From: Fulvivirga ligni
GTDB lineage: Bacteria; Bacteroidota; Bacteroidia; Cytophagales; Cyclobacteriaceae
Reading direction: 5' to 3'
NCBI RefSeq assembly: GCF_021389935.1
Contig: NZ_CP089979.1
Location: forward strand, 3,825,001 to 3,889,000
DNA length: 64,000 bases
Shown here: positions 27,287-43,757 of the stretch, one piece after another
Layout: the number at the start of each line of letters is the position of its first letter
How positions within the stretch are numbered: the first letter of the stretch is position 1
The notes under the pieces: model-generated
What the model was told of the DNA's origin: nothing
What the model saw: only the letters and a program-made list of their open reading frames with translations
Database searches by the model: none
Program-made: the position numbers and the translations under genes

Positions 27287-30200
27287 TATCATTAAAAAAC
27301 ATATTCACCATCTCCAAATACGAAGGCAAGGTACTTTGGAGAAACTGGTTCTTCAGAATAGTGGCGCTGGCCGGGGTTATTTTTGTCACCATTTTGAATA
27401 TCGCGGTTTTCTCAGGTTTAGATAATACCAGATGGCTTTCTATTTCTAATAATCATATCATTCCTTACGCTACGCTGGTGATGATAAGCATACCACAGGT
27501 AGCAGCAGTTATTTTCCTGGCTACTGGTCTTATCAAAAAGGATAAGAAAATAGACACTAACGAAGTGTTCTTTGTCCGCCCGATTACCAATCTGGATTAT
27601 GTATTTGGAAAGGCTCTGGCCATATTCAAACTCTTCTTTATCCTTAACATGGTGTTGCTTTCTATCGCTTTTGTGGTCAACATCATTAATGGTAATGCTG
27701 AGCTTAACCCTGCTGCCTATTTTTTGTACCCTTTTCTTACCAGCGTGCCTAGCATCATTTTTACTACTGGTCTGGCTTTTCTTCTGGTAACATTAATAAG
27801 AAATCAACCTATCACCATTGTATTGCTTCTAGGGCTGGCAGCTGTGCAGCTCTTTAAATACTTTGATAAGTTCGCCAACATTCTGGATTTCAGTGCTTTC
27901 AGGCTCTCAATGCTTATCTCTGAGATCTCAGGCTTTGCTGATATGAAGTTTGCCTTGAACCAACGCCTTTTCTATACACTTGTTGGTATCGCTTGTATGT
28001 GGCTCACCGCTTTCTTCCTGGATCGCTTACCGAGCTACAGAAGAGTAAAGGTTGTTACAGGTATTGTAGGCCTTGTACTAGTGGCGGCCTCTGCCCTATC
28101 TATGGTAAATTTATGGGCTATCAGAAGCCATGAATTAACTCACCGTGCAGCAATGGTGACCATAAATTATAAATGGGCTAAAACGCCAAATGTAGATATT
28201 ACTGCCGCTTCCATAGACCTGGAGCATCGTGGTGATCAGATCTATTGCACAGCCAATCTTACCATAAAGAATAACTCGGGAGCACAGCTGGATTCTATCT
28301 ATTTTACATTAAATCCTGGCCTTATCGTTGATCAGTTAAGTATAGGAAATGATGATATTAAAGCTTTAAGAGATGATTATTTAGTATCTATTAATCAAGG
28401 TGTTAAGATAAGTAATGGCGCGACAAGGAAAGTCCAGATAAAGTATCATGGTACCATTCAAGATGAGGCGGCTCACCTGGAGGTAGATGATGAAAGGTAT
28501 GAGTCTCCTGTACAGTATCTGATGTATTCATTGCAAAAGAAATATGCGTTTCTACAACCAGATTATGCCCTTCTTACCTCCGATGTTATGTGGTACCCGG
28601 GCACTGAGATTGGCTACAGTCATAAAGCCATAGCTCAGCAAAAGGCTAATTTCATTGACTTTGAGCTTTATGTAAAAACTCAAAATGGTTTAACGGCGAT
28701 ATCACAGGGAGATGTTACCAGCTCAGAGGGTAATTATCATTTCAAGCCTGAATATCCGCTGCCACAAATATCACTGGCCATTGGCAATTATGTAAAGAAA
28801 GGTATCACGTTGGATAGTGTTACTTACGCCATTTACCACTATCCTAACCATAACTTTCTGGAGAACAACCTGGGGGCTCTATCGGATACGCTTTCTTATT
28901 TGATTGATGATATTGTGAGCTCTTACGAAGATGTGAGGAAATTGAAATATCCTTTCAAAAGGCTACAATTCGTGGAGGCGCCAATTCATTTTATGGCCTA
29001 TGCCAAAATCTATGAAAGCAGTCAGGCCTTTGTGCAGCCGGAGATGGTTTTTTGGCCGGAAGAAGGTGGCGATCTTGACCGTTTTGATTTTAGACGGCAG
29101 CTTAGAGACCTGGAGCATCAGGCCAGGCAAGACAATCAGGTGTATGATGATAAGCAGAAACAGGCTTATTTATTCAAAAACTTAATTAGTCATGTATTCA
29201 CAAAGGTGAGTAACGAAGGCTGGTTTTTCGCTGGTCGAAATGCTGATGATCCTGATTATTCCATATTCCCCAATTACTATAGCTTTAACTCAGCTGTGAT
29301 TAGTAAAGAATGGCCATTGCTTAACCGCGGTATTGCCAAATACATCGGCAGCGAAGGTGAAGGCGGCTATGATTATTCTAGAGATATGAATGGCATTTCG
29401 TTCATAGAGGAATGTAACCAACTGATGAGAGAAGCAGGCTTGCAAAAAATCATCGCTAATGAGCCATTTAGCAAGATCAAACAGTCAGTTTCTCTAAAAA
29501 GTGAATATCTCTTTGCCTACCTGGGCCAGATTATTGGCGAGAACCAATTAAAGAGTTTTCTGTATAACTGGGTAAACACACATCAGCACCAACCTGTAAC
29601 CTACGAGACACTTCGTTCGGCTTTGATAGAGCAGTTTCAGGTGGACATCACTCCTATTATCAAAAAAGTTTATCAGTCTACTTCACAGCCTGCCTTTGAT
29701 ATATTCAATGTAGAAAAATATGAAGTAGTAGATGGTGATAAGAAGCGCTATCAGGTAATAATTGATGTGAAGAATGTGGGCGAAAATGACGGGATACTTG
29801 AAGTAATATTTAATCATTTTGATGATAAAAAGGAGAACGATTCTGACGAACCAAAGCCCGAAGAGAAAACCGGCAAGCTAGCCATCATTAAGAAGGGTGA
29901 GATAAAACGATTGGGCTACATTTTAGATGAAAGACCTAACGAAATTAAGTTCAACACCATTATTTCAAGAAATATACCTTCAGAAATCTATATGTCTGTG
30001 GGTGAGCTGGACAAAATGAAGCATCAAAAGCTTTTTGAGGGAGAGCAAGTGCTGGCGAATGTTCCTCAACCAGATCAGTATCAGGTAATTGTGGATAATG
30101 AAGATTCACTTTCTTTTACCACTTTTAGTCCTATAAAACCAACGTATCTAAGAGCATTCCTGGATAATAGAGATGATTCTAACCAGAAGTACTTCGGCCA

Positions 30201-30597
30201 GTGGCACCGTTCTTATGCCAAATGGCTTCCTACTACAGGCACCGATTTTTACGGTAGTGTAATCCGTTCTGCCCATTTTACAAGGGCTGGCAGTGGTGAG
30301 AAAACAGCTACCTGGGCACCTACTTTTAAAGAGCCAGGGTTCTATGACATTTACATTTACCTGAGAGGTAAAAATCAAAAAGATTATCAACCAAGCGGTC
30401 AGCAGTCACACTACCGCTACATCATACATCATGCTGATGGTGAGGATGATATAAAATACAATTTAGCTAATGCAGAGCCAGGATGGAACTATCTGGGGTC
30501 TTATTACTTCAATGCTTCTGGCGGCAGCGTGGAGCTGTCAGATGACTGTGAACTCCGAACGGTGTATGCAGATGCAATTAAATGGGTCAAGCAATAA
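27283..30597 (+). CDS. ABC permease fused to degenerate M1-peptidase-like and golvesin-like domains
   Basis: 1104 residues, start in the ATGA overlap with the ATPase. Residues ~1-290 hold about seven membrane helices of an ABC-2 permease (FFRIVALAGVIFVTILNI, then SIPQVAAVIFLATGLI and others). Residues ~300-800 resemble the beta-sandwich and helical part of M1 aminopeptidases, but the zinc motif HEXXH is missing; the region near LEHQARQDNQ is the closest, so it is probably not a peptidase. Residues ~960-1104 match the golvesin/Xly carbohydrate-binding-like domain (WAPTFKEPGFYDIYIYLRG, YRYIIHHADG, WNYLGSYYFNA). The permease-peptidase fusion is known in Bacteroidota; the golvesin end is uncommon. 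Confidence 0.85.
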   Translation: MISLKNIFTISKYEGKVLWRNWFFRIVALAGVIFVTILNIAVFSGLDNTRWLSISNNHIIPYATLVMISIPQVAAVIFLATGLIKKDKKIDTNEVFFVRPITNLDYVFGKALAIFKLFFILNMVLLSIAFVVNIINGNAELNPAAYFLYPFLTSVPSIIFTTGLAFLLVTLIRNQPITIVLLLGLAAVQLFKYFDKFANILDFSAFRLSMLISEISGFADMKFALNQRLFYTLVGIACMWLTAFFLDRLPSYRRVKVVTGIVGLVLVAASALSMVNLWAIRSHELTHRAAMVTINYKWAKTPNVDITAASIDLEHRGDQIYCTANLTIKNNSGAQLDSIYFTLNPGLIVDQLSIGNDDIKALRDDYLVSINQGVKISNGATRKVQIKYHGTIQDEAAHLEVDDERYESPVQYLMYSLQKKYAFLQPDYALLTSDVMWYPGTEIGYSHKAIAQQKANFIDFELYVKTQNGLTAISQGDVTSSEGNYHFKPEYPLPQISLAIGNYVKKGITLDSVTYAIYHYPNHNFLENNLGALSDTLSYLIDDIVSSYEDVRKLKYPFKRLQFVEAPIHFMAYAKIYESSQAFVQPEMVFWPEEGGDLDRFDFRRQLRDLEHQARQDNQVYDDKQKQAYLFKNLISHVFTKVSNEGWFFAGRNADDPDYSIFPNYYSFNSAVISKEWPLLNRGIAKYIGSEGEGGYDYSRDMNGISFIEECNQLMREAGLQKIIANEPFSKIKQSVSLKSEYLFAYLGQIIGENQLKSFLYNWVNTHQHQPVTYETLRSALIEQFQVDITPIIKKVYQSTSQPAFDIFNVEKYEVVDGDKKRYQVIIDVKNVGENDGILEVIFNHFDDKKENDSDEPKPEEKTGKLAIIKKGEIKRLGYILDERPNEIKFNTIISRNIPSEIYMSVGELDKMKHQKLFEGEQVLANVPQPDQYQVIVDNEDSLSFTTFSPIKPTYLRAFLDNRDDSNQKYFGQWHRSYAKWLPTTGTDFYGSVIRSAHFTRAGSGEKTATWAPTFKEPGFYDIYIYLRGKNQKDYQPSGQQSHYRYIIHHADGEDDIKYNLANAEPGWNYLGSYYFNASGGSVELSDDCELRTVYADAIKWVKQ

Positions 30598-30602
30598 TTA
30601 TT

Positions 30603-32117
30603 ATGATTGGTAAACTAAAAATGCTAACAACAAAACGAATGGGGCGGACAAGCCTGCATAAGCTGGGATGGGTGCTCCTCATTTCAGTGGCTTGTGGTCT
30701 CAAATTTTCAGGGGTAAACGGTCAGCATACCCTCACACTGGAAGAGTCTATCCAGATAGCCCAAACCAGTAGCCCTGAGATAAAGAAGTCCAAACTGAAC
30801 CTGTTCAGTAACCAGCGGAGCCTTGATGCTCAACGAGCTGCTATGAGGTCGCAGTTTGCGCTGGATATTACCCCTTTCCAGTATGATCGTACCAGAACAT
30901 TTAATGACTTATTTTCCACATGGTACACCACTGAAGATTATAATTCTTTTGCTAACCTTTCTGTGAGTCAGCCGATTGGCGCCACAGATGGTACTATTTC
31001 ATTGATCAACAGGTTCGGTTATAGAGATAATTACTCTGAGTTTAATGATCTAAGAACTAAAACTTACAGTAACAACCTCTATTTGCAGGTAGACCAACCT
31101 ATTTTCACTTATAATCGTAACAGGCTGCAACTAAAGGAGCTTGAGCTAAACCTGGAAAATGCCCAGATCAGCAATGCCCTACAGCTACTCAACTTGGAGA
31201 AATTAGTTACGGAAAGCTTCTATAACCTCTATAAAGGTCAAAATAATGTAGAGATATCCAGAGATGAGTACAATAACCAACAGGTGAGTTTTGACATCAC
31301 AGAAAAGAAAGTGGAGGCCGACCTTCTGGCTCGGGAAGAGCTGTATCAGGCAGAGCTAAACCTGGCCAGTTCTAAATCTACACTGGAAAATGATCAGGTA
31401 TTTTTGGATAATGCAGAAGACGATTTCAAACTTCTTTTAGGCCTTGATCTGGATGAAGAGTTGACCGTAGAGATAGATATAGATTTCATTACTCGCAAGG
31501 TAGATTTAAATCAGGCTATTCAGCATGGCCTGGAAAACAGACTTGAGCTAAGAGAGCGAAACATTGCCCTTGAGCGTTCTCAGTTTGAGCTAATTAAAAC
31601 CAAGGGTTTGAACGAATTCAAAGGTAGCATAGGCCTTTCACTAGGTGTGTTTGGAGATAATCCGCAAGCACCAGATGTTTATCAAAACCCAACTATGAAC
31701 CCAAGTGTAGCTGTTTCATTTAGAATACCTATCTGGGACTGGGGCGAAAATAGGGCCCGTATCGAAGCCACCAATGCCAATCTTCAGATCAATGAAATTG
31801 ACCTGGAAACGGAAAGAAGAAACATTACCATAGATATCAGAAAGGTTTACAGAAGTCTGCAAAACCTTGAAAATCAGATAGAAATAGCTCAGCAGAACGT
31901 GAAAAATGCAGAGCTTACCTATGACCTGAATCTGGAAAGATACAAGAATGGAGACCTTACCAGTATCGATCTTAACCAGTTTCAGAACCAGCTTTCTGAT
32001 AAGAAAAGTGCTTTAGCAGATGCACTGATCAATTATAAAATAGAGCTACTGAATTTAAAAATTCTATCGCTTTATGATTTTGAAAAGCAGGAACCAGTAA
32101 TGCTTCAAACCTACTAA
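30603..32117 (+). CDS. TolC-family outer-membrane efflux protein
   Basis: About 504 residues from ATG 30603 (an upstream ATG at 30582 would overlap the previous stop). A signal peptide ends near GVNGQ. HTLTLEESIQIAQTSSPEI opens the first TolC coiled-coil repeat, and a second begins DLNQAIQHGLENRLELRERN; long Asn/Gln/Glu-rich heptads follow, ending ...LNLKILSLYDFE. It forms the outer-membrane channel of the tripartite pump encoded downstream. Position: 5 bp after the ABC permease-peptidase gene and 40 bp before the adaptor. Confidence 0.93.
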   Translation: MIGKLKMLTTKRMGRTSLHKLGWVLLISVACGLKFSGVNGQHTLTLEESIQIAQTSSPEIKKSKLNLFSNQRSLDAQRAAMRSQFALDITPFQYDRTRTFNDLFSTWYTTEDYNSFANLSVSQPIGATDGTISLINRFGYRDNYSEFNDLRTKTYSNNLYLQVDQPIFTYNRNRLQLKELELNLENAQISNALQLLNLEKLVTESFYNLYKGQNNVEISRDEYNNQQVSFDITEKKVEADLLAREELYQAELNLASSKSTLENDQVFLDNAEDDFKLLLGLDLDEELTVEIDIDFITRKVDLNQAIQHGLENRLELRERNIALERSQFELIKTKGLNEFKGSIGLSLGVFGDNPQAPDVYQNPTMNPSVAVSFRIPIWDWGENRARIEATNANLQINEIDLETERRNITIDIRKVYRSLQNLENQIEIAQQNVKNAELTYDLNLERYKNGDLTSIDLNQFQNQLSDKKSALADALINYKIELLNLKILSLYDFEKQEPVMLQTY

Positions 32118-32157
32118 TCACCTTCAGAACTCTTACATTATGCAACCAATAACATAC

Positions 32158-33216
32158 ATGCAAAACTCAAAAAAATGGATTTTCTTTCTTTTGATTATCA
32201 GTGGCTTCTGGTCCTGTAATAATGAGAAATCTAATATCCAGACAGATATTAAAATTCCGGTGTCAGTACAGAGTATCAAGCCTCAGAGCATTTCTCGTTT
32301 CATTGAAACCACAGGTACGGTGTACTCTTCTAAGGAGGCCATCATGAAATCTGAGCTGGCGGGTATTTACAAGATCCAGACTAATCCTGACACGGGTAAA
32401 CCCTATGCTCTGGGTGATGCTGTGAAAGCGGGTCAGATCATCATTAAAATAGAAGATAAAGAGTTTGAAAATAACCTGCAGCTGGAAGGTAAAAGGCTTA
32501 ATCTTGAGCTCACCGAGAGTAATCTTCAAAAACAAAAGTCTTTATATGACAAAGGCGGTGTAACGCAGACGGAGCTAAAGAACTCTAATATTGAGTATGT
32601 AAATTCTAAATACTCTTATGAGAATGCTGAGATTCAGATGGCTAAAATGTACGTTAGAGCGCCATTTTCCGGAGTTGTTGTAGAAATGCCTTACCACACC
32701 ATTGGCGTGAGAATAGATCAGGGTCAGGATCTGTTCAAGGTGATGGAATACGAACATCTTCTCATGGATGTAAAACTGCCGGAAAAGCATCAGTCTGAGG
32801 TGAATGTAAACCAGCAGGTACAAATCACTAACTACAATGTAGCCAAAGATACCATTTACGGTAAAATAGATCAGATATCACCTGTAATTGACGCAGATAC
32901 CAGGACCTTCCAAAGCGTGCTGCAGATCGATAACGGCAAAAGTCTTCTACGTCCGGGCATGTTCATCAAAGCGGCCATTCTTGCCGAGAAGCGAGACAGC
33001 ACCATTGTGATACCAAAAGAGACTATCATCAGCAGACAGGATGGTAAAATTGTGTTCACCGTGGAAAATGGTATTGCCAGTGAGAAGCGCATCACCACAG
33101 GTCTGGAAAATATGGATGTGATCGAGGTCACGTCAGGACTAAAAGTTAATGACAGGCTTGTTACCAGTGGTTTTGAAACGCTGAGAGATAAGTCCAAAGT
33201 CAGTGTAGTTCAATAA
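32158..33216 (+). CDS. RND efflux periplasmic adaptor (membrane fusion protein), lipoprotein
   Basis: About 352 residues from ATG 32158; a further ATG at 32140 is possible. A lipobox (GFWSC) anchors it to a membrane. Order of domains: lipoyl/barrel-sandwich half (ETTGTVYSSKEAIMKSELAG), alpha-hairpin (LQLEGKRLNLELTESNLQKQ), second lipoyl half (MYVRAPFSGVVVEMP), beta-barrel and membrane-proximal domain (GLENMDVIEVTSGLKVNDRL). It connects the RND pumps to TolC. Confidence 0.93.
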   Translation: MQNSKKWIFFLLIISGFWSCNNEKSNIQTDIKIPVSVQSIKPQSISRFIETTGTVYSSKEAIMKSELAGIYKIQTNPDTGKPYALGDAVKAGQIIIKIEDKEFENNLQLEGKRLNLELTESNLQKQKSLYDKGGVTQTELKNSNIEYVNSKYSYENAEIQMAKMYVRAPFSGVVVEMPYHTIGVRIDQGQDLFKVMEYEHLLMDVKLPEKHQSEVNVNQQVQITNYNVAKDTIYGKIDQISPVIDADTRTFQSVLQIDNGKSLLRPGMFIKAAILAEKRDSTIVIPKETIISRQDGKIVFTVENGIASEKRITTGLENMDVIEVTSGLKVNDRLVTSGFETLRDKSKVSVVQ

Positions 33217-33239: not shown

Positions 33240-36200
33240 GTGAAAAAAATTGTTTCGCTGGCTGTGTCCTACCCTGTTACCATTCTTATGATGGTGCTTG
33301 CCGTAATACTTTTGGGGAGTATTTCGTTTGGCAAGTTGGGTATCGAGTTGTTCCCCGATCTGAAGAATCCTACGCTCTTTGTGGAGCTGAAAGTAGGTAT
33401 AAAGCCTCCTTCTGAGGTTGAAAAGCAATTTATTGAATCCATTGAGTCGGTAGCTATTCGCCAAAGTGGTGCCGTGGAAGTCAGTTCTATCAGCCAGACA
33501 GGTTATGGCCGGGTTACGGTGGAGTATGACTGGGGTAAAGATATGGATGAGGCCTTCCTTGATCTTCAAAAGTCGCTTTCTAACTTTTCATTAAATGAAG
33601 AGATCGATGAATTTGTGATCTCACAGTTTGATCCGAATGCTACTCCTATCATGATTCTGGGTATCTACAACCCTAATTCTGATGACACCGATGCTTTACG
33701 AAAGGTAGCGGAGAATAACTTCAGAAATGCATTAGTGCGATTGCCTGGTGTGGCTGAGGTGAAATTATCAGGTGCTCAGGAAAAGGAAGTAGTGCTTGAA
33801 ACGGATCCTCACTTGTTGGCCGCATTTGGTCTTACGGTTAACGATCTTGTCGCCAAAATTCAGAATTATAATCGTAATGTTTCTGGTGGCTACATTGAGG
33901 AGCTGGGTAAGAAATATGTAATAAAAGGCCTTGGTATTATTGAAAAGCCTGAAGATCTACAGGATTTAGTGGTGGGTTACACTACTCGCCAAAATATAGC
34001 TGGCACCACTCCTACTACTAGCTCCACTGGCACTTCACAAGCTGCTGGAAATCAGCAAGGAACGAGCAATCAGGTTCCCGTATTGCTTCGCGAAGTGGCT
34101 ACCATGAAAGTGATGGACAAAGAAGCTAGTAGCATCGTACGTGTCAACCAGCAGAGAAGTTTGGGCATGTCCATTTACAAGGAAACTCAATACAATACAG
34201 TAAATGCTGTGAATGAGCTTACCGAGGTGCTTGAAGATTTGAAAAAATCTGTACCTGGCTACGAGTTTGTCATCATCCAAAATCAGGGAAGATTCATTCA
34301 GGGCGCGATTGATGAAGTGAAGGAATCAGGCTTGTACGGTGCTTTATTCGCCATGTTGGTATTGTTTGTTTTTCTCAGACGAATTGGCTCTACGTTGATC
34401 ATTAGTATCGCTATTCCAATTTCTATTATCGCGACTTTCAATCTTATGTACTTCAATGGCCTTACACTAAATGTAATGACGTTGGGCGGACTGGCTTTAG
34501 GTGCAGGGATGTTGGTGGATAATGCCATTGTGGTGGTAGAAAGCATTTTCAGAAAGCGCGAAGAAGGCCTCAGCGTTATTGACGCTGCTATTCAGGGAAC
34601 CAGTGAAGTAAGTGGTGCTATTACCGCTTCTACGCTGACGACTATCATCGTTTTCCTTCCCATTGTATACATGCAAGGACCATCAGGTGAGCTATTTAAG
34701 GATCAGGCCTGGACGGTAGCTTTCTCACTCATCTCGTCACTGGTAGTGGCTGTTTTGGTAATCCCCATGTTATTCGCCAAGATTTTTAAGAAAGATAAAA
34801 CTGTACCTGAAGTACAACCTTTAAAGTTCAAAGCTTATCGCAATCTGCTGGATAAGGTGCTTCGGTTTAGAATAGCCTTTATCATTGCTTCGTTTGTAAT
34901 GGTGTTTGGTGCCTATTTGCTAATTGATGTGATCGGTAGTGAATACATGCCTCAATCAGGTACAAGAGCTGTTTCGGTAGACCTTACTTTAACCAACGGA
35001 ACGCCACTACAGCGTACGTCATCAACGGTAAACCAAATTGAAGGTCAACTGCTGCAACTATTTGAAGGACAGATAGATAAGGTATACTCTCACATTGGTC
35101 CTAAGGAAAGTCAGTCGGGCATTGAGAATGAGAATGTCTATGATGAAAATAAGGCCAATTTGAAGCTAATTTTCTCCGAAGAAGCGGAATTAGATATTGC
35201 TAATATCACCACAGTTCTATCAGACTACTTTGAAAAAATCCCTGGCTTGGAAGCTACTTTTTCTAATGATGAAAGTGCTTTGAGTTCGGTACTGGGTGAT
35301 GAGCAAATGCCTTTAGTGGTAGAAGTAAGTGGAGCTGACTTTGATGCTCTCAGCCCCCTCTCCGATTCTGTGATGCTGATCATGGGCAGCAATGCCGATG
35401 TGTTTGAACCAGTATCCAACCTGGAAGAAGGTGTGCCGCAGGTTCAGGTAGACGTAGATAAATACCGGGCTGGGCTTTTGAACTTGTCTATCGATGACAT
35501 CATCAATCAAATAAAGGATCAGCTGGAAGGAAAGAACGCAGGTAGCCTGGAGCGTGGCGGTGAAATGCAGGACATTCAGATCAAGGTGCCGAAGATTTCA
35601 TTGGCAGGTTTGGAGAATATGACCATTAAAAGCAATAACAAAGAGTTTCCGTTAGGCGATGTAGCGAAGATCAATATCAAGTATGCTGCTAATTCCATCT
35701 ATCGTAGAAATCAGACAAGAATGGTTTCCATCGGAGCTCGTGTGAATCAAGACAAGCCTTATGACAAGATTGTGGAATCGATAGAAGGTTCATTTTCAGG
35801 CCTTTCTGTACCGCCTCAGTACAAAATAGATGTTGCAGGTCAGGAGATCAAGCGCCAGGAGTCTATGAAAAACCTAACTTTCTCATTGATCTTGTCCGTC
35901 TTACTCGTGTACATGGTGCTGGCTTCGCAGTTTGAATCGCTGCTACATCCCTTCACCATTTTGCTTACTATTCCGTTGGCTGGTGTGGGTGCGCTTCTCT
36001 CCTTCTTTATTTTAGGCATGCCGCTGAACATGATGGCTTTCATAGGTATCATTATGCTTACCGGTATCGCGGTGAATGACTCTATCATATTGGTAGACAG
36101 CATAAACAAGAATAAAGTAGCAGGAATGCCGCTTCGTGAAGCTATACTGGATGCTGGTCAGCGCAGGTTCAGACCAATCATTATGACCAGTCTAACTACC

Positions 36201-36398
36201 ATTTTGGCCTTGTTACCATTGACTTTTGGTTTTGGCGAAAGTGCCGCCTTGCGTGCGCCGATGGCAGTGGCTGTTATCGGTGGTTTGGTTACGTCTACCC
36301 TACTCACTTTGATAGTGATCCCTTGCTTTTATGAGAGCATTGAGAATGTGGTAAACAGGATCAGAGGTAAGAGAGAAAAGACTACTTCTCATGGGTAA
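33240..36398 (+). CDS. RND-family (AcrB/SwrC-like) efflux pump subunit
   Basis: 1052 residues, GTG start. It has the two-fold RND layout: TM1 followed by a large porter domain, TM2-7, second porter domain, TM8-12. TM4 carries GMLVDNAIVVVES (AcrB D407 retained, D408 replaced by Asn) and TM10 carries TGIAVNDSIILVDS in place of the AcrB Lys region, the usual VDN/VND pattern of the HAE1/SwrC group. It overlaps the next RND gene by 8 bp, so a heteromeric pump like MdtBC is possible. Confidence 0.93.
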   Translation: MKKIVSLAVSYPVTILMMVLAVILLGSISFGKLGIELFPDLKNPTLFVELKVGIKPPSEVEKQFIESIESVAIRQSGAVEVSSISQTGYGRVTVEYDWGKDMDEAFLDLQKSLSNFSLNEEIDEFVISQFDPNATPIMILGIYNPNSDDTDALRKVAENNFRNALVRLPGVAEVKLSGAQEKEVVLETDPHLLAAFGLTVNDLVAKIQNYNRNVSGGYIEELGKKYVIKGLGIIEKPEDLQDLVVGYTTRQNIAGTTPTTSSTGTSQAAGNQQGTSNQVPVLLREVATMKVMDKEASSIVRVNQQRSLGMSIYKETQYNTVNAVNELTEVLEDLKKSVPGYEFVIIQNQGRFIQGAIDEVKESGLYGALFAMLVLFVFLRRIGSTLIISIAIPISIIATFNLMYFNGLTLNVMTLGGLALGAGMLVDNAIVVVESIFRKREEGLSVIDAAIQGTSEVSGAITASTLTTIIVFLPIVYMQGPSGELFKDQAWTVAFSLISSLVVAVLVIPMLFAKIFKKDKTVPEVQPLKFKAYRNLLDKVLRFRIAFIIASFVMVFGAYLLIDVIGSEYMPQSGTRAVSVDLTLTNGTPLQRTSSTVNQIEGQLLQLFEGQIDKVYSHIGPKESQSGIENENVYDENKANLKLIFSEEAELDIANITTVLSDYFEKIPGLEATFSNDESALSSVLGDEQMPLVVEVSGADFDALSPLSDSVMLIMGSNADVFEPVSNLEEGVPQVQVDVDKYRAGLLNLSIDDIINQIKDQLEGKNAGSLERGGEMQDIQIKVPKISLAGLENMTIKSNNKEFPLGDVAKINIKYAANSIYRRNQTRMVSIGARVNQDKPYDKIVESIEGSFSGLSVPPQYKIDVAGQEIKRQESMKNLTFSLILSVLLVYMVLASQFESLLHPFTILLTIPLAGVGALLSFFILGMPLNMMAFIGIIMLTGIAVNDSIILVDSINKNKVAGMPLREAILDAGQRRFRPIIMTSLTTILALLPLTFGFGESAALRAPMAVAVIGGLVTSTLLTLIVIPCFYESIENVVNRIRGKREKTTSHG

Positions 36399-39300
36399 GA
36401 GCAGCATTTTACATACCATTATCAAAAGGAAAGTCCTGGTGTCGATGTTATTCATCGGGTTCACCGTGATGGGCTATATTTCCTACAAAAAGTTGCCGGT
36501 AGAGCTCTTTCCTAATGTGGAGTTTCCGGTGCTCATTGTGCAGGTCGGCTCTATGTCAGAGGTGAATCCTAAATACATGGAGAGCCAGGCCATTGTGCCT
36601 TTGGAGGGCGTAATTAGTGCGCTGGAAGGTATCGAAGAGATAAATTCCAGTGTTGATAGCCGTCAGGGAATGATCTTTATTTCCTTTAAGCAGGATGTTA
36701 ATATCAAATATGCCTATCTCAAGCTGGAGCAGAAAGTAGGTGCCATCAAGGCTGATCTTGCACCTGAGTTTATGGTCCAAATAGTGAAAATAGACACGGA
36801 GCAGCTCACCAACTCATTTATGGAGCTGCAGGTGCTGGGCAGTGGTGGCGTAGATCGTGTCAGAAATGTTACTGATCAATACATCGCTGATCGGCTGAGT
36901 GATGTTGATGGCGTGGGTGGTATTGAAGTGTATGGCGGAAGGCAGAAAACAGTGGAGATCATTATGGATGATGCTGTTTGTGAAGCCAATGGCATTACTC
37001 CGAACACCATCAGTAATGTGCTTTCGCAAAATGCCAATAAAAGTGCTTTTGTAGGTCAAGTGGAAAGAAACGGCCAGCAGATATTCGTGAACGTAACCGC
37101 TGAGCTGAAAGACATCAAAAACATTCAAAGTCTGGTGGTTTCAGAAAAAGGACCATTACTACTAAGTGATGTAGCTGATGTGTTTTTTGGTGTGAAAGAA
37201 CAAACATCCCTCAGCCGTGTCAATGGCAAAGATGCTGTCTCTATTCGTATTTCAAAAGATACTCAAGCCAACCTTATTGATCTGTCTGACAGGACTTTAG
37301 AGGTTATTGATGAAATTAATGATGAACTGGCTCCACTGGATGTAAAGATTGAAGTACAGAACAACCAGGCCGAGTTGATGACGGATAATATTGACCAGAT
37401 CAAAAACCTGGCTCTAACAGGTGGCTTGCTGGCTATATTCGTATTGTGGGTGTTCCTGAGAAGGCTCAAATTCATTCTAAGCATTGCTTTAGCTATACCC
37501 ATTTCCGTGTATACTGCATTCAACTTCTTTTATGCCGCAGGTATTTCTGTTAATAGTCTTACCCTTATCGGAATGGCCTTGGCCATTGGTATGTTGCTGG
37601 ATAACAGCGTGGTAGTAATCGAAAACATCTACCGACATGTTGTAAATAGAAAGAAAACAGAAGATGCTGTGGTAGATGGCACCAAAGAGGTGATGCGTTC
37701 GGTTATAGCAGCCACCTTAACTACGGTGACCGTTTTCTTACCTTTTATCTTCTCCACTAACTTTCTGGTGACTTTAATTGGTACCCACATAGGGGTATCT
37801 ATCATTTCTACCTTGTTAGTGTCTTTAGTGGTATCGTTGGTATTGATTCCAATGCTGGCACATGCAGCTATCAGTAAAGATGATCAGTCGAAGGCGCCTT
37901 TGATTAAAAATGCATCTATTCGTCAGCGGATTATTCAGATATATATGGTGGTGCTGAAGGCCTGCTTCAGAAGGCCTGCCTTTACCATTGTGGGTGGTTT
38001 GGTGCTGTTTTTCGTGACCATCGGCCTAAGTCTTCTGGTGAGTATAGCAAGTCTTAGTGAGGTAGAGAAAACTCAGATGAATCTGTTTTTGACCATGCCT
38101 CAGGGAACTACGTTGAACTCTACAGATGAGCGTGTTCGCCATCTCGAAGAGAAGATTATGGAGATTCCGGTAGTGGAGAAAGTGATCAGCCAGATATCAG
38201 AAGGTGATGCAGTAATTGCTGTCAATCTGAAAGAAGACATTAAGGATGATAAGCTAAACTCTATCCCTGCTATCCGAAATAAACTGCTTGGCTTGGCTCG
38301 ATTCTATGGAGATATGAACGTATCTATGGACGCTCCACCTCAAAGGAATGGTGGCGGTGCCGCCAGTGCTGCTGGTTCTGCAGCAGCTGATTTTGAGCGG
38401 TTGCTCGGCATTGGAAGTGCTCAGGAGCGTGTGGTAATCAAAGGCCAGGATTTTGAGCTGATGCAGACCATAGCCAATGACATCAACAGCTTTATCTCTG
38501 GCATGCAGTCTATACAAATGAGTTACATTGATGTAACGCCGGAGCGTCCTGAAGCCCATATTCGCTTCAACCAGCAAGAGATGAGCGCCAATAATATTAC
38601 GCAGGAGAACGTGGCGGTGGCGCTCAACGATTTCCAGCCAGCATTCGCCTCAGGTACCCGATTTGTTAGTGGGGATGAAGAGTTTGAAATAACCATTCAA
38701 ACCCAAAAGCAAATGGATTACACCGCCAAGGATATGAAGGACCTTCGGCAGATGCCCATCACCAGTAACACTGGCGCGAAGCATTCCCTGTCAGATATTG
38801 GCTCGGTCATGTACTCTTCCGGAGAAAGCGTGATTACACGTGTAAACCAGGAAAAGAGAATTGAGATCAACTATCAGTTTATTGATGAAGTAGTGGGCTC
38901 AGAATCATTACTGGAAGCTTCAAGAGTAGAAATTGACGAATTGGTAAATAGTGTGAACATTCCATCGGGTATGGTGGTAGAGGTTATTCATGATGACAAT
39001 CTGTATGATGAGTTTTACTTTCTCATTTTTGCAGCAGTCATCGTGATATTCATGATCCTGGCCGCAGTATTTGAATCACTCTATTTACCGATCGTGATCA
39101 TGTTTTCTATACCATTGGCAGGTATCGGAGCATTTCTCGGCCTGACTTTAACCGGTAATTCATTACTTAACGCCAACACATTAATCGGCTTTTTAATATT
39201 ACTGGGCGTGGTGGTGAACAATGGTATCATCCTCATCGACTACAGTCGTATCCTGAGAAGACAAGGATACACTAAATATAGAGCCTTGATAGTCAGTGGA

Positions 39301-41094
39301 ATATCTCGTATCAGACCGATATTGATTACTTCAATTACTACTATAGTGGCCATGTTGCCGTTGGCGCTTGGTGAAGCAGAATATGTAGTGAGCATTGGTC
39401 AGCCATTTGCCATTACCGTTATGGGTGGACTTGCTTTTGCTACGGTGCTCACACTAATTTACATACCCACCATGAGTGCAGGTTTGGAAAGCGTATTGAA
39501 TTGGTTTAGGAATCTCAGCACTGTTAATAAGGTCACTCAAATTGTATTGTTAATCGTGATCGCAGCAATCATCTATGTTCAGGTAGATGGGGGCATGTGG
39601 CAAGCCATTTGGTTTCTTACAGCCCTGCTGCTGGTGCCTGGAAGTACTTACTTTGTGATGAGTTCATTGCGTCAGGCGAATGCCAAAATGGTAGCCCCTG
39701 ATGATAAAATGCACATTGAGATTCAGAACCTAACCAAAGTGTATGGCAGAGACAAACGCTGGATCAGAGAATGGAAAGGCAATAAACAGCTATACGATGA
39801 GCGTGGTGGATCAGTAGTCTCCAGAAAAATGGTGTTGCAAAATATGATCTGGCAGAGTGCCTTAATCGCCTTTCTTGTTTATTTTATCTATTTCTATCTG
39901 GACAAGGCCTTTTGGCAACTGGTATTCATGATCAGCCTGCATGTACTGCTGATCTCCATCTTCACTGAAGTGACTCAGCTGCTCAAAAAGAGATACAAAA
40001 TCATTAGCTTGATAAGATGGCTGCTGTTCTGGGGTTTCCCTATCGTGAGCTCTGTTTTCATCTATGCCGATATTACTTCCAAAGGAGCTGGTATATTCCT
40101 GATTATCATATGGTTTGTGGGATTGTTCCTGGTTCGAACATCGAAGAGACTAGAGGAAAAACCGGTGAATGTAAAAGAGATCAGTGGCAGATTTAAGAGA
40201 ATCAGAAAGCTGTATTATAAGATTATATTGGCCATTCCTTTTGTGAAACCCAAGAAGCCAGCATTCAGAGCACTCAAAGGTGTTAATCTGACCATTGAAC
40301 AAGGCATGTTCGGTCTTTTGGGGCCAAACGGTGCCGGTAAAACTACTTTGATGCGGATTTTATGTGGTATCATGGATCAGAGCTATGGTAAAATCTGGAT
40401 CAACGGCCATGATACTAATCTCTATCGTGAGGAGCTCCAGGGGCTGATTGGATATTTACCCCAGGCCTTTGGAACCTATGAAAACATGACTCCTTATCAA
40501 TTCCTTGATTATCAGGCTATTTTAAGGAAAATCACCAACAAAAAGGAAAGAGAAGATCGTGTACAATATGTGCTAAAAGCAGTGCATATGTTAGAGCATC
40601 AGCACAAAAAGATAGGCTCTTTCTCAGGTGGTATGAAACAAAGAATTGGTATAGCCCAGATTCTGCTGCATTTGCCTAAAATACTGGTAGTAGATGAGCC
40701 AACCGCTGGCTTGGATCCACTAGAAAGAATCAGGTTCAGAAACCTGTTGGTTGAGCTCAGTCGTGAGCGGATTGTGGTATTCTCCACCCACATTATTGAA
40801 GATATAGCCAGCAGCTGTAACAACCTGGCTGTGCTGATTTCAGGTAACATCGAATACATTGGAAGCCCCACCGCCATGGCCGAACTGGCTCATGACAAAG
40901 TATGGGAATTCCACCTGACACCAGCACAGTTCGAAGAAGAAAAAGAAAACTACCTGATCGTCCACCACATGCGTGAAGGCGACCAGATAAGAGTAAAATG
41001 CCTCTCAGCCCACCAGCCTCGCCCAGACGCCACCCAAACCAAGGCCAACCTGGAAGATGCTTACCTGTGGCTGATGAAGAGTAGTAGGGAGTGA
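36391..41094 (+). CDS. Fusion of a full RND pump with an ABC ATPase
   Basis: 1567 residues. Residues 1-~1036 are a complete RND pump with TM4 GMLLDNSVVVIEN and TM10 LGVVVNNGIILID. After two membrane segments (~1045-1095) comes MHIEIQNLTKVYG at residue 1107, a normal ABC-ATPase start, but then ~170 residues with about four predicted membrane helices follow before the NBD resumes at FRALKGVNLTIEQG. Walker A GPNGAGKT is at 1311-1318, signature SFSGGMKQRIG near 1411, Walker B ILVVDEPTAGLDP near 1431, and H-loop STHIIED; all look functional. The frame is continuous, so no frameshift is needed. The NBD is similar to the ATPase at 26396. A machine using both proton and ATP energy, or ATPase-gated RND transport, is inferred. 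Confidence 0.9.
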   Translation: MGKSSILHTIIKRKVLVSMLFIGFTVMGYISYKKLPVELFPNVEFPVLIVQVGSMSEVNPKYMESQAIVPLEGVISALEGIEEINSSVDSRQGMIFISFKQDVNIKYAYLKLEQKVGAIKADLAPEFMVQIVKIDTEQLTNSFMELQVLGSGGVDRVRNVTDQYIADRLSDVDGVGGIEVYGGRQKTVEIIMDDAVCEANGITPNTISNVLSQNANKSAFVGQVERNGQQIFVNVTAELKDIKNIQSLVVSEKGPLLLSDVADVFFGVKEQTSLSRVNGKDAVSIRISKDTQANLIDLSDRTLEVIDEINDELAPLDVKIEVQNNQAELMTDNIDQIKNLALTGGLLAIFVLWVFLRRLKFILSIALAIPISVYTAFNFFYAAGISVNSLTLIGMALAIGMLLDNSVVVIENIYRHVVNRKKTEDAVVDGTKEVMRSVIAATLTTVTVFLPFIFSTNFLVTLIGTHIGVSIISTLLVSLVVSLVLIPMLAHAAISKDDQSKAPLIKNASIRQRIIQIYMVVLKACFRRPAFTIVGGLVLFFVTIGLSLLVSIASLSEVEKTQMNLFLTMPQGTTLNSTDERVRHLEEKIMEIPVVEKVISQISEGDAVIAVNLKEDIKDDKLNSIPAIRNKLLGLARFYGDMNVSMDAPPQRNGGGAASAAGSAAADFERLLGIGSAQERVVIKGQDFELMQTIANDINSFISGMQSIQMSYIDVTPERPEAHIRFNQQEMSANNITQENVAVALNDFQPAFASGTRFVSGDEEFEITIQTQKQMDYTAKDMKDLRQMPITSNTGAKHSLSDIGSVMYSSGESVITRVNQEKRIEINYQFIDEVVGSESLLEASRVEIDELVNSVNIPSGMVVEVIHDDNLYDEFYFLIFAAVIVIFMILAAVFESLYLPIVIMFSIPLAGIGAFLGLTLTGNSLLNANTLIGFLILLGVVVNNGIILIDYSRILRRQGYTKYRALIVSGISRIRPILITSITTIVAMLPLALGEAEYVVSIGQPFAITVMGGLAFATVLTLIYIPTMSAGLESVLNWFRNLSTVNKVTQIVLLIVIAAIIYVQVDGGMWQAIWFLTALLLVPGSTYFVMSSLRQANAKMVAPDDKMHIEIQNLTKVYGRDKRWIREWKGNKQLYDERGGSVVSRKMVLQNMIWQSALIAFLVYFIYFYLDKAFWQLVFMISLHVLLISIFTEVTQLLKKRYKIISLIRWLLFWGFPIVSSVFIYADITSKGAGIFLIIIWFVGLFLVRTSKRLEEKPVNVKEISGRFKRIRKLYYKIILAIPFVKPKKPAFRALKGVNLTIEQGMFGLLGPNGAGKTTLMRILCGIMDQSYGKIWINGHDTNLYREELQGLIGYLPQAFGTYENMTPYQFLDYQAILRKITNKKEREDRVQYVLKAVHMLEHQHKKIGSFSGGMKQRIGIAQILLHLPKILVVDEPTAGLDPLERIRFRNLLVELSRERIVVFSTHIIEDIASSCNNLAVLISGNIEYIGSPTAMAELAHDKVWEFHLTPAQFEEEKENYLIVHHMREGDQIRVKCLSAHQPRPDATQTKANLEDAYLWLMKSSRE

Positions 41095-41630
41095 CGCAAT
41101 GACCTCATCCCCGACCCTTCTCATGAGAGGAGAAAGGAGAATGTTGGAGCAAAGTGCTCCTTACGCACAAAGCGTCATTCCGGCCGCAGCGCAGCGGAGA
41201 GCCGGAATCTTGCTGCTCGGTAACAGAGGCTGAACAGTAAGATTCCGGATATTCTTCCGCTACGCTACAGAATTCCGGAATGACGTTATGGGATAACGTG
41301 AGGATGGTGTGAAGTACAGAAATGACAAGACAAACAGAGTCACCCTGAGGCAGCGAAGTGCTCCTTACGCACAAAGCGTCATTCTGGCCGCAGCGCAGCG
41401 GAGAGCCGGAATCTTATCGCTCGGTAGCAGAGACTGAACAGTAAGATTCTGGATATTCTTCCGCTACGCTACAGAATTCCGGAATGACGTTATGGGATAA
41501 CGTGAGGATGGTTTGAAGTGCAGAAATGATAAGATGAACAGAGTCACCCTGAGGTACTCGAAGGGTAGATGGTTTAAAAGCAGTATAAGAAGATAACAGC
41601 AAAACAGAATAAAAAACAAGTAAAGCAAAA
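41095..41630. repeat. Repeat-rich gap: 204-bp tandem duplication with two long-inverted-repeat elements
   Basis: No gene. 41152-41355 and 41356-41559 are two copies of a 204-bp unit with about 93% identity by eye. Each holds one ~113-bp element (R1 41173-41285, R2 41377-41489) whose ends CGTCATTCCGG and CCGGAATGACG are inverted, with the arms continuing imperfectly inward. Before them (41101-41140) lies an inverted copy of the ~75-bp tail found at 43933-44007 and 45681-45752, and 41537-41572 is an inverted match to 44018-44054 (core TCACCCTGAGG...AAGGGT). Confidence 0.8.
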
Positions 41631-42332
41631 ATGAACAGCTACCTCCTACTCCTATACAAAATCATCACCTACAACGTGAAGGTAATCTTTGCTAACAAGT
41701 TCATTTACTTTGTAATAGCGGCCTTTTTGTTTTTTGGGTTCATCATCACCATCACCATCTTCGATGACCCCGACTTCAACGAAGCCGTGATCTACGGTTT
41801 CCTGGTATTCCCGGGTTTACTGCTCATCTTCTACCCCATGGCCTACGGCATCCAAAATGATGACGATTCCAAGATGCTGGAAACCATTTTTGGGATACCA
41901 AATTATCGATACAAAGTCTGGTTAGTACGTTTCGTTCTAACCATTGGAGTAGCGGCGGTTATACTGTTTGTGCTAACCAGTATTGCCAACCTCACCCTCT
42001 ACCGCTTCAGCATACTCCCGATGCTGGGCCAGGTGCTGTTCCCAATCGCCTTCTTATCGTCATTGGCCTTTATGCTTTCCACCTTAATCAAAAATGGCAA
42101 CGGAACGGCCATTGTTATTGTGATAGTATCCTTCCTCTTCTTCGTATTTGCCGAGCCCTTAGAATACAACCCATACAATGTGTTCCTGAACCCCTTCTCA
42201 GAACCACAAGACATGAGCGAGTTCATCTGGGTAACCATCATCTTCAAAAACAGAGTTTACCTGATGGTAGCCAGCTCCCTTTGCTTGCTGTACGGAATGT
42301 TTAATCTGCAGTTTAGGGAGAGGTTTGTTTAG
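41631..42332 (+). CDS. Small ABC-2 type permease-like membrane protein
   Basis: 233 residues with about six membrane helices (for example FIYFVIAAFLFFGFIITITI, AVIYGFLVFPGLLLIFYPMA, VRFVLTIGVAAVILFVLTSI, LFPIAFLSSLAFMLSTLI, GTAIVIVIVSFLFFVFAEP, MVASSLCLLYGMFNLQF) and the ABC-2 motif DDDSKMLETIFGIP after TM2. No ATPase is adjacent except the one fused to the RND pump upstream, so it may be the permease partner of that NBD; the 536-bp repeat gap between them could be a late insertion into the operon. Inference on the partnership. Confidence 0.8.
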   Translation: MNSYLLLLYKIITYNVKVIFANKFIYFVIAAFLFFGFIITITIFDDPDFNEAVIYGFLVFPGLLLIFYPMAYGIQNDDDSKMLETIFGIPNYRYKVWLVRFVLTIGVAAVILFVLTSIANLTLYRFSILPMLGQVLFPIAFLSSLAFMLSTLIKNGNGTAIVIVIVSFLFFVFAEPLEYNPYNVFLNPFSEPQDMSEFIWVTIIFKNRVYLMVASSLCLLYGMFNLQFRERFV

Positions 42333-42341
42333 GTTCGTTGA

Positions 42342-42387
42342 AGTAAAGAGGTTACTCTTGCCCGGTGGCAAGAGTAACCTCTTTACT
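42342..42387. repeat. 21-bp-arm perfect hairpin overlapping the RAYT stop codon
   Basis: Perfect inverted repeat: arms 42342-42362 and 42367-42387, loop CGGT. It covers the last three codons and TAA stop of the RAYT gene (42383-42385) and lies between convergent genes. No T-run follows, so it may be a repeat element or RAYT target rather than an ordinary terminator, although it would also slow transcription. Confidence 0.85.
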
Positions 42388-43000
42388 CCAACAGAAAATC
42401 CGGAGGTATCGCCTTCGCCGAAATATTCTGATTTCGATGAAAATCAGAATAACCATCCTGACCACCAAACCACTCTAGAACATCCTCTCGACTTAGTTTT
42501 GTGATTCTACCTTCGTGGAGATGAGTGTGATAGGATGAGTAGGGATAATCTTTATAGTCATCTACAATTCCATGTTTCTGAGGGTTTTGATGAATATATG
42601 CCACCAATCTAGAGAAGTAATGTTCATCTTCCACTAAAATTCGCTTAACGGGTGATTCAAAGAGAGGGCCAGTTCTGTCATACATTTTGTTCATAGCCCT
42701 GGTGTAACTTTGAAGGAAGCTGGACAAAGCATTACTAACATGCCAGTATAAAGGCTTTTCTTTATACCGAACAATTAAAGACTCTATCAACTTTTCGCTG
42801 CGAACCCTTAGCAAAATATGGAAATGGTTTCCTAACAGACAGTAAGCATAAGTCTCCACATATGGGTGAACATACTTTGTGTATTGTTGGAGAAAGTAAT
42901 TATAATTTTTGGATTCGAAGAAAACTGGTGCACCATTTACTCCTCTATTGAAAAGATGAAAGACAGCATTAGGGTGAAATTGAGAGTTTCTGATGTCCAT
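42383..43000 (-). CDS. REP-associated tyrosine transposase (RAYT), Y1/HUH family
   Basis: 205 residues from ATG 42998-43000, which begins MDIRNSQFHPNAVFHLFNRG, the usual RAYT start; an upstream ATG at 43336 would cover the divergent DUF2293 gene and is rejected. The HUH metal motif is in YCLLGNHFHILLRV, and the catalytic Tyr region YIHQNPQKHGIV follows. RAYTs are domesticated IS200/IS605-like transposases that act on REP hairpins. Five inverted-repeat elements lie within 2.7 kb on either side, and a 21-bp hairpin overlaps its stop, a REPtron-like setting. No flanking transposon ends of an autonomous IS are clear. Confidence 0.9.
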   Translation of the reverse strand: MDIRNSQFHPNAVFHLFNRGVNGAPVFFESKNYNYFLQQYTKYVHPYVETYAYCLLGNHFHILLRVRSEKLIESLIVRYKEKPLYWHVSNALSSFLQSYTRAMNKMYDRTGPLFESPVKRILVEDEHYFSRLVAYIHQNPQKHGIVDDYKDYPYSSYHTHLHEGRITKLSREDVLEWFGGQDGYSDFHRNQNISAKAIPPDFLLE

Positions 43001-43091
43001 TCTCGAGAGTATTAAAGATTTTACTTTAAGTGGTGACTTTAATAAGATACTAACTTTTCCATAGATTTGCACCCTCAAAAAAACTACTCCC

Positions 43092-43757
43092 ATGCCCAAT
43101 CCCCGCATCATGAGCCCCGGTAAAAACGGGCACGTTATTAATGAATTTGGTCGGCCAGAACAACCACCTAAAGGCTGGGCTTTTCTGCCGGCTGGTGATG
43201 CCGCTGTTACCAGAAAGGTAACGGCTAAAGGAGACTTTTGGAGAGTGCAGGTGAAGAAAGGCAGGCGGATGCAGTCGTTGGGCATATGGGCACCTGCAGA
43301 GCATATTGATGAAGCCAAGAAAGCTGTTGATGTCATGCGTGCGGCTCCGGATTATGAGAAGAAAAAGGCAAGTGCTGCTAAGTCAAGAGATAAGAAACAG
43401 GCGGCTTATAAAGAGGAGTTTGAGCAAGCTGTGAGGCAACATTTGAACTTCCATGCTAAATATAAGGCCTTGGAATCAAAGATGGCTCATCTGGTGACTG
43501 AGCATGCTATTCCAGTAGGCAGTGGCACAGTGGCTCGTACAGCCATGATTCCCATCGAGGAGCGAGCTTCAAAAGCCGTTATCGCCTGGATGCGTCATAA
43601 AACTACCAACTATGATAATATGAAGATTGCCCGGGTAAAAGGTGAAAGACGAGCAGTCAGGAGGCGATTAGCACAGGGATCCGTGAAGGTGCTGAATGCC
43701 TATCGTGCTGGTGATGAAGTTGTTGAGGGGTGTGTTTTGTATAGGGCTCTGCGTTGA
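43092..43757 (+). CDS. DUF2293 domain-containing protein
   Basis: 221 residues, transcribed divergently from the RAYT gene, 91 bp apart. The C-terminal half contains IPIEERASKAVIAWMRHKTT and NYDNMKIARVKGERRAVRRR, the conserved core of DUF2293 (IP...RA..AV.AxIRHxxTxYD). The N-terminal ~80 residues resemble a small basic domain (KGWAFLPAGDAAVTRKV). The family is of unknown function and is probably nucleic-acid-associated given its charge. No signal peptide. Confidence 0.8.
   Translation: MPNPRIMSPGKNGHVINEFGRPEQPPKGWAFLPAGDAAVTRKVTAKGDFWRVQVKKGRRMQSLGIWAPAEHIDEAKKAVDVMRAAPDYEKKKASAAKSRDKKQAAYKEEFEQAVRQHLNFHAKYKALESKMAHLVTEHAIPVGSGTVARTAMIPIEERASKAVIAWMRHKTTNYDNMKIARVKGERRAVRRRLAQGSVKVLNAYRAGDEVVEGCVLYRALR

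Follow-up and report, generated by a model that had tools for sequence, protein, structure and literature searches.

A conserved fusion of an RND pump and an ABC ATPase in a TolC operon of Fulvivirga ligni

Can one polypeptide carry both an RND pump and an ABC ATPase, and if so, which membrane partner does the ATPase serve? The question is raised by a gene in a 64,000-nt stretch of the Fulvivirga ligni genome (GCF_021389935.1, NZ_CP089979.1, 3,825,001-3,889,000 of the forward strand), which we call the window and to which all coordinates refer. Positions 36391-41094 form a single uninterrupted frame that starts with ATG and encodes 1567 amino acids. The Pfam family ACR_tran spans residues 7-1028 (E 7e-157, 524 bits against a cut-off of 28), covering the whole RND pump, and ABC_tran matches residues 1295-1439 far above its cut-off (E 2e-28). 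These matches bear out the sequence-only reading, which had proposed a full RND pump (residues 1 to about 1036) and a complete ABC ATPase in one frame.

Five segments follow one another along the plus strand. An AcrB/MdtB-like RND permease (residues 1-1036, 36391-39498), whose best solved relative by sequence is MdtB (9lyq), is joined through a linker that adds two membrane helices, TM13-14 (residues 1037-1106, 39499-39708), to the first strand of the ABC ATPase (residues 1107-1118, 39709-39744). This strand is present in the AlphaFold2 model, aligns to residues 1-12 of a neighboring stand-alone ATPase, ABC1, and ends at an invariant tyrosine. A four-helix membrane insert, TM15-18, defined by the model, hydropathy and alignment, then interrupts the ATPase (residues 1119-1287, 39745-40251), and the remainder, with all motifs and a C-terminal domain, occupies residues 1288-1567 and the stop codon (40252-41094; assigned by Pfam and conserved motifs). 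The model and hydropathy thus place six extra helices in the protein instead of the two counted earlier, with two ahead of the ATPase (about residues 1051-1090) and four within it (about 1152-1250), and the insert of roughly 170 residues separates the first two strands of the ATPase. No Pfam family exceeds its cut-off across the linker-insert region (39493-40263). This region evolves as protein: among five pairwise comparisons, dN/dS is 0.14 and 0.18 in the two with unsaturated dS, and pN/pS is 0.24-0.34 where dS is saturated.

When the same fusion was sought in related genomes it was found, and with the present genome the count is 42 (35 further members of the family and 6 more distant genomes; about 46-82% identity). 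Because all 42 keep a single reading frame across the junction, an assembly join or frameshift is ruled out. Thirty-seven of the 42 frames are full-length, and the remaining five are cut short by the end of a contig. Split homologues are absent from the matches listed for the whole protein in 58 relatives, and from the strong matches listed (E <= 1e-60) for the C-terminal 544 residues against 390 family genomes, a threshold that a strongly diverged split form could escape. A profile of the linker and insert retrieves the fused genes and three weak matches. One of these (G532) looks by eye like a sensor kinase; the other two (G829 and G417) match at E 2e-4 and 0.001. Separately, eight loci (L043-L050) match at 26-39%, mostly across the ATPase part. 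The sequence-only reading knew of no characterized example, and our literature search likewise found no RND-ABC fusion in the portions covered, including those of PMC8277102, PMC3924187, PMC9629497 and PMC4338810, with most subscription journals outside its scope.

The ATPase had also been described as having intact Walker A, Q-loop, signature, Walker B and H-loop motifs, and the alignment agrees, with the key residues conserved in relatives. K1317, Q1358, the signature SGG, D1435, E1436 and H1467 are invariant across the 36 family sequences that extend this far, and T1318 of Walker A is threonine in 35 of the 36 and serine in one. The six distant sequences retain Walker A, an SGGM signature, Walker B and STHI; five of them have serine at the T1318 position, and one carries tyrosine in place of the signature phenylalanine. 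Y1118, which we take to be an A-loop-like tyrosine, is kept in 36/36 family sequences. An internal start at Met1107, giving a separate ATPase, is unlikely as a conserved device, since methionine is found in 28 of the 36 sequences with a residue there, although the window copy itself might use one. By sequence, the nearest proteins are the ABCA proteins. Fold matches include ABCA4 and NosF, but also LptB and importer ATPases, so the fold of the ATPase does not single out type V exporters.

The fusion gene is part of a conserved seven-gene operon, entirely on the plus strand. ABC1 (26396-27286) is followed by a large ABC-2-like permease (27283-30597) with a periplasmic domain and a Golvesin_C end (Golvesin_C over and ABC2_membrane_4 under the cut-off), a TolC-type outer membrane channel (30582-32117; OEP), a periplasmic adaptor, or membrane fusion protein (32140-33216; RND_mfp over the cut-off), and the partner RND permease RND1 (33240-36398), whose gene shares its last 8 nt with the beginning of the fusion gene. 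The last gene encodes PERM2 (41631-42332), a small permease of 233 amino acids that appears type V-like (ABC-2) by weak fold matches. In the window, a gap of 536 nt separates the fusion gene from PERM2 and bears two 203-nt repeats (41148-41554, no strand assigned) with 58 genome matches, a figure that includes some places twice, once for each strand. The identical seven-gene order is present in 32 of 42 other loci. Genes are missing from the remaining ten where the contig ends, except at one locus (L112), where a different open frame follows the fusion ahead of the contig end. RND1 orthologues co-occur with the fusion: of 196 family genomes, 25 encode one, and each of these 25 also encodes the fusion. 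RND1 and the fusion may be subunits of one mixed, heteromeric RND pump.

PERM2 lies downstream of the fusion in 40/42 other loci and, with each frame read from its first start codon, overlaps the fusion gene in 29 of these 40, by 29 nt in 18. Across the phylum it is found in 4 of 198 sampled genomes, and all four carry the fusion. The same four are those retrieved by the linker-insert profile among 345 phylum genomes, a sample within which the 198 may not all lie. Of the 50 fold matches listed for the PERM2 model, all but one are entries for ABC transporters or efflux pumps, with PmtCD, NosY and ABCG2, whose families we take to be type V, at the top; these matches are weak, with a TM-score to the query of up to 0.65, a best E of 0.017 and none at 0.001 or better. 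The Pfam family ABC2_membrane_3 is detected in 4 of 15 PERM2 relatives (best E 6e-5). The window copy matches no Pfam family, a PERM2 profile against the PDB gives chance-level matches only, to BCL6, and no MacB/FtsX-type Pfam family is listed for either the fusion or PERM2. The joint occurrence of all operon members is, taken alone, no guide to which permease works with the ATPase. Type V-like by weak fold matches and sampled only with the fusion, PERM2 would be a conventional partner.

The fusion is genuine and conserved, which gives good support to a functional connection between its RND and ABC parts. With moderate confidence, we propose that the fused ATPase powers PERM2, forming a type V ABC exporter tethered to a heteromeric RND-TolC pump, with ATP and then the ion gradient moving cargo outward. 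The fusion would serve as one subunit of an export machine that spans the envelope and physically ties RND1 and the fusion's own RND part, the adaptor and TolC to the ABC exporter. Held in the membrane by the six extra helices, the fused ATPase would pair with PERM2 and spend ATP on moving or flipping cargo from the cytoplasm or out of the inner membrane; the RND part, predicted to be powered by the ion gradient, would capture this cargo on the periplasmic side and push it outward through TolC. The sequence-only reading, which considered the fused gene alone, had suggested dual energy coupling or ATPase-controlled RND function. Of these, dual energization of one machine is plausible, with the ATPase most likely acting on its neighbor PERM2. 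A bolder version, which we hold only tentatively, is a single machine energized at once by ATP and the ion gradient, in which the ATPase, held by the helices that pass through its fold, would mechanically time the RND cycle, and inner-membrane cargo would pass from the ABC part to RND and TolC without release.

The fused ATPase might instead pair with ABC1, the two driving a mixed permease composed of the large ABC-2-like permease and PERM2, so that one asymmetric ABC exporter is tethered to the RND pump. No other protein of the genome matches the fused ATPase as well as ABC1 does (42%, 230 bits, versus 37%, 130 bits, for the next), the two can be aligned through a common C-terminal extension, and all four parts are retained together in the operon. 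We nevertheless consider this pairing unlikely. Many heterodimeric ABC proteins show a degenerate site, whereas both ATPases in the window have canonical catalytic motifs by eye. Furthermore, ABC1 groups in the tree not with the fused ATPase but with stand-alone proteins from genomes lacking the fusion (support 91/86, moderate), and these ABC1-like genes adjoin a large protein of 1099-1203 amino acids with no fusion in the fetched stretch (7/7).

ATP binding and hydrolysis could also gate or drive the cycle of the RND part itself, placing dual energization within one polypeptide. None of the genomes found breaks the covalent link between the two halves, and two parts of the AcrB-type ion relay, the second TM4 aspartate and the TM10 lysine, are absent from the fusion when aligned to MdtB (N405 in 41/41 and N943 in 42/42 sequences). 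RND1 also lacks both, with asparagine (30/36) or isoleucine (6/36) at the second TM4 aspartate and asparagine (36/36) at the TM10 lysine. Against this, the TM4 aspartate D404 (41/41) and the TM11 arginine R975 (42/42) are invariant where aligned, so ion coupling of the RND part is not visibly lost. Another RND protein of the same genome (L137/L139, one gene) shows the identical D-N/N-N pattern, and the pattern therefore does not show loss of ion coupling or prove an ATP drive; three others (L131, L132 and L133) have Asp-Asp in TM4 and lysine in TM10. With PERM2 offering a conventional partner, direct action of ATP on the RND part is possible but improbable. That the fusion is a mere scaffold or assembly aid, tying two independent transporters together for equal amounts or co-location, is very hard to credit: gene fusions frequently join neighbors, and sequence conservation is lowest in the linker and in part of the insert (mean identity 0.55 at residues 1041-1080 and 0.53 at 1201-1240), but the six extra helices, including those inside the ATPase, are kept over distances of 46-50% identity, beyond the needs of a tether.

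The proposed exporter, tethered to an RND-TolC pump, can be compared with several known systems. MdtABC-TolC likewise has an adaptor, an outer membrane channel and a pair of neighboring RND genes, and MdtB is the best solved RND relative; here, however, an RND subunit bears an ABC ATPase and six more helices, and the operon includes permeases. To our knowledge, MdtB and MdtC contain no ATPase. NosDFY and other type V exporters (NosF/NosY, PmtCD, ABCA/ABCG) are similar in that ABCA proteins are close to the ATPase in both sequence and fold, NosF is close to it in fold, and the PERM2 model resembles NosY and PmtCD, with weak E-values. They differ in that the ATPase here is fused to an RND pump and split by a four-helix insert, with the permease encoded by a separate gene. 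MacAB-TolC exports cargo through TolC using ATP and an adaptor, an arrangement shared here if the predicted use of ATP holds, whereas the membrane part in our case is an RND pump with a type V-like permease and no MacB-type family. RND-OEP (CusA-CusC-like) fusions, one of which, of 1437 amino acids, is encoded in this genome, likewise extend an RND permease at its C terminus, but their extension is an outer membrane channel domain rather than an ATPase.

Primary export pumps, which use ATP, and secondary pumps, which use an ion gradient, are treated as separate classes, and here a conserved polypeptide within a TolC operon carries both. The fusion offers a direct way to ask whether cells pass cargo from an ATP-driven to an ion-driven step, and how an ABC ATPase works when a membrane domain interrupts its core.

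The fusion gene (36391-41094, + strand) is a single ATG-started open frame of 1567 aa in which the Pfam families ACR_tran (residues 7-1028) and ABC_tran (residues 1295-1439) both score far over cut-off, bearing out the proposal of a sequence-only reading that one uninterrupted frame carries an RND pump and an ABC ATPase. Among the 25 of 191 NCBIfam families listed, RND permease and ABC ATPase models, including GldA, DrrA and RbbA, all fall below cut-off. The genome carrying the window is 6.52 Mb in one contig. Most sequence of a congener (G007) at this locus coincides with a contig of Fulvivirga lutimaris, 42 of 54 sampled 40-mers of L031 being common to both; the genus Fulvivirga is placed in Bacteroidota. 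The join is not an artefact of assembly or of a frameshift, a concern raised in the sequence-only reading: the RND-ABC junction is read in one frame in 36 of 36 family loci, with 31 frames full length and five running off contig ends.

Related genomes carry the same fusion, as the earlier reading had suggested checking, with 36 of 390 family genomes and six more distant ones containing it. The family count, which includes the window genome, comes from whole matches to a C-terminal 544-aa query; matches spanning the entire protein occur in 7 of 57 other genomes among relatives (50-82% identity among the matches listed), and one further match is cut by a contig edge. The C-terminal part is also found at 71-80% identity in 12 contigs, including those of Fulvivirga lutimaris, Fulvivirga sp. 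M361, Xanthovirga aplysinae and Imperialibacter sp., which overlap genomes already counted and are not additional. For more distant genomes the search used a profile built only from the linker and membrane insert. This profile matched 7 of 390 genomes in the order sample (the window genome, four family members, one new fused gene from another family of the order, and one protein that, judged by eye, is a sensor kinase), 7 of 395 in the class sample (the window genome, four fused genes in other families and two weak matches), and 4 of 345 in the phylum sample (the window genome, two found before and one new from another class). The six distant fused genes have frames of 1569-1633 aa and are 46-50% identical to the window protein; in the longer, 1633-aa fusion (L151:11438-16339, oriented; genome G809) the profile matches as two pieces about 35 residues apart. 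The fusion is a minority trait among relatives, the rest of each sample being without it at the thresholds used. The window genome also holds a second RND fusion, a 1437-aa RND permease whose C-terminal domain is an outer membrane channel, OEP (L134:289-4602; G000:C1 near 1773931-1777020).

Residues 1-1036 form the RND pump, with MdtB the closest among solved structures. An AlphaFold2 model of residues 1036-1567 (pLDDT 80, pTM 0.55) and family-alignment hydropathy place six helices beyond this part, two at about 1051-1090 (TM13-14) and four at about 1152-1250 (TM15-18), the third of the four being the weakest in hydropathy (1.27). The two parts and the two helices ahead of the ATPase thus stand as first described; the count of only two helices does not, as six are seen, four of them inside the ATPase. 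The fused ATPase starts at residue 1107, where MHIEIQNLTKVY aligns with MNIEIKGLTKVY of ABC1, the stand-alone ABC ATPase of the operon, and is then interrupted by ~170 residues ahead of the strand leading to Walker A. This alignment therefore sets the four helices between the first two strands of the ATPase, and the model shows one strand at residues 1108-1118 and another at 1292-1303. Neither linker nor insert matches a Pfam family over cut-off. In segments picked by eye from the window protein, K/R counts are 13 after TM14, 4 between TM16 and TM17, and 14 after TM18, and 0-1 between TM13-14, TM15-16 and TM17-18; this distribution therefore points to an ATPase on the cytoplasmic side. The segment after TM12, which is cytoplasmic in an RND pump, is short with only 1 K/R and adds no support to this sidedness.

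The ABC motifs are intact, as the sequence-only reading held: K1317, Q1358, the signature SGG, D1435, E1436 and H1467 are invariant in the 36 family sequences, and T1318 is Thr in 35 and Ser in one. These motifs are also preserved in the six distant sequences, five of which have Ser at the T1318 position and one Tyr in place of the signature Phe. In the RND part, D404 (41/41 sequences) and R975 (42/42) are conserved, as are N405 (41/41) and N943 (42/42), which stand where AcrB-type relays have a second Asp and a Lys. This D-N/N-N pattern is no proof of lost ion coupling, since another RND protein of the window genome shares it and the partner permease RND1 is nearly alike.

Upstream of the fusion gene lie ABC1 (26396-27286), a large ABC-2-like permease with a Golvesin_C end (27283-30597), TolC (30582-32117), an adaptor (32140-33216) and RND1 (33240-36398); downstream is PERM2 (41631-42332), a small, putatively type V-like permease. 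All seven genes keep their order and strand in 32 of 42 other loci; the remaining ten lack genes at the point where their contig stops. PERM2 follows the fusion in 40 of the 42; at L112 (genome G165) a different open frame stands after the fusion gene ahead of the contig end. With frames taken from the first start codon, 29 of the 40 loci show an overlap of PERM2 with the fusion gene, 29 nt long in 18 of them, and in the other 11 a gap of 1-810 nt lies between the two. The window's gap contains two tandem 203-nt repeat copies (41148-41350 and 41352-41554) of an interspersed family with 58 genome matches, a number in which some sites count twice, once per strand; in six relatives the gap is 114-810 nt. 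Adjoining the repeats is an open frame (42383-43336, - strand) with no Pfam match over cut-off, whose product, judged by eye, presumably resembles an IS200-like/REP-associated transposase. Upstream of the operon are a further ABC ATPase and an adjoining protein without a Pfam match (23546-25184), and a small protein (25549-26241); relatives of the latter, at 27-38%, precede the operon in 18 of 36 loci.

Across the phylum, PERM2 occurs in 4 of 198 genomes (E <= 1e-10, single copy each), the same four that match the linker-insert profile among 345 phylum genomes, the two samples being possibly not nested. Of 196 family genomes, 25 have an RND1 orthologue (48% or more), and every one of these belongs to the 36 fusion carriers; this is a one-way count, taken from RND1 to the fusion. 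One other RND1 match (29%, G172) comes from a genome without the fusion in the 390-genome family sample. In the samples made, the operon genes behave as one unit.

In a maximum-likelihood tree of 45 ATPases, with the root drawn at midpoint only and long outgroup branches, 14 fused ATPases lie on one side of a branch (support 100/98) and 13 ABC1 proteins are set off by their own (99/99). Seven stand-alone ABC1-like proteins from fusion-free genomes join ABC1 and not the fused ATPase (91/86, moderate), so in this tree the fused ATPase does not stem from a late ABC1 copy. A single fusion event would fit this topology. G1172, from another class, is placed weakly among family rows (81/39), which may reflect transfer. 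Each of the seven stand-alone ATPases has as neighbour a 1099-1203-aa protein bearing an M1-type HEXXH motif; four of these proteins match the operon's large permease by BLAST (19-26%), and Pfam, run on one of the seven, reports Peptidase_M1. HEXXH is found in 0 of 34 operon relatives of the large permease, the window copy having HELTH elsewhere, and this permease may contain an M1-type domain whose zinc site was lost.

By sequence the fused ATPase is most ABCA-family-like, and its fold matches 4yer, ABCA4, LptB and NosF, and also importer ATPases. The PERM2 model (pLDDT 76, pTM 0.74) matches PmtCD, NosY, ABCG2, ABCG25, ABCG5/8 and ABCA entries; 49 of 50 listed matches are ABC transporters or efflux pumps, the remaining one being a designed protein, and all are weak (TM-score to query at most 0.65; E 0.017 at best, with none reaching 0.001). 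ABC2_membrane_3 is found in 4 of 15 PERM2 relatives; the window PERM2 has no Pfam match, and its profile gave chance-level matches only against PDB sequences. Because the ATPase resembles NosF and the PERM2 model NosY, we infer from fold, position and co-occurrence that NosF with NosY is the natural model for this pair.

In the most likely reading, PERM2 and the fused ATPase would make up an ATP-driven exporter tethered to a heteromeric RND pump, which would be composed of RND1 plus the fusion and work with the adaptor and TolC. An ABC transporter needs two ATPases, and MdtB2C1 has two MdtB per trimer; by analogy, and speculatively, an RND trimer with two fusion subunits would provide both. 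In rival readings the fused ATPase would pair with ABC1, or ATP would directly control the RND cycle. For the tethered ATPase-PERM2 exporter, likeness to ABCA- and NosF-like systems, which handle lipids and other substrates, offers no more than a hint of the cargo. The sequence-only reading knew of no characterised fusion of this kind, and none is described in the part of the matching literature that our search covered. Each half is of a known kind; what is new is their join, the membrane insert within the ATPase and the conserved operon.
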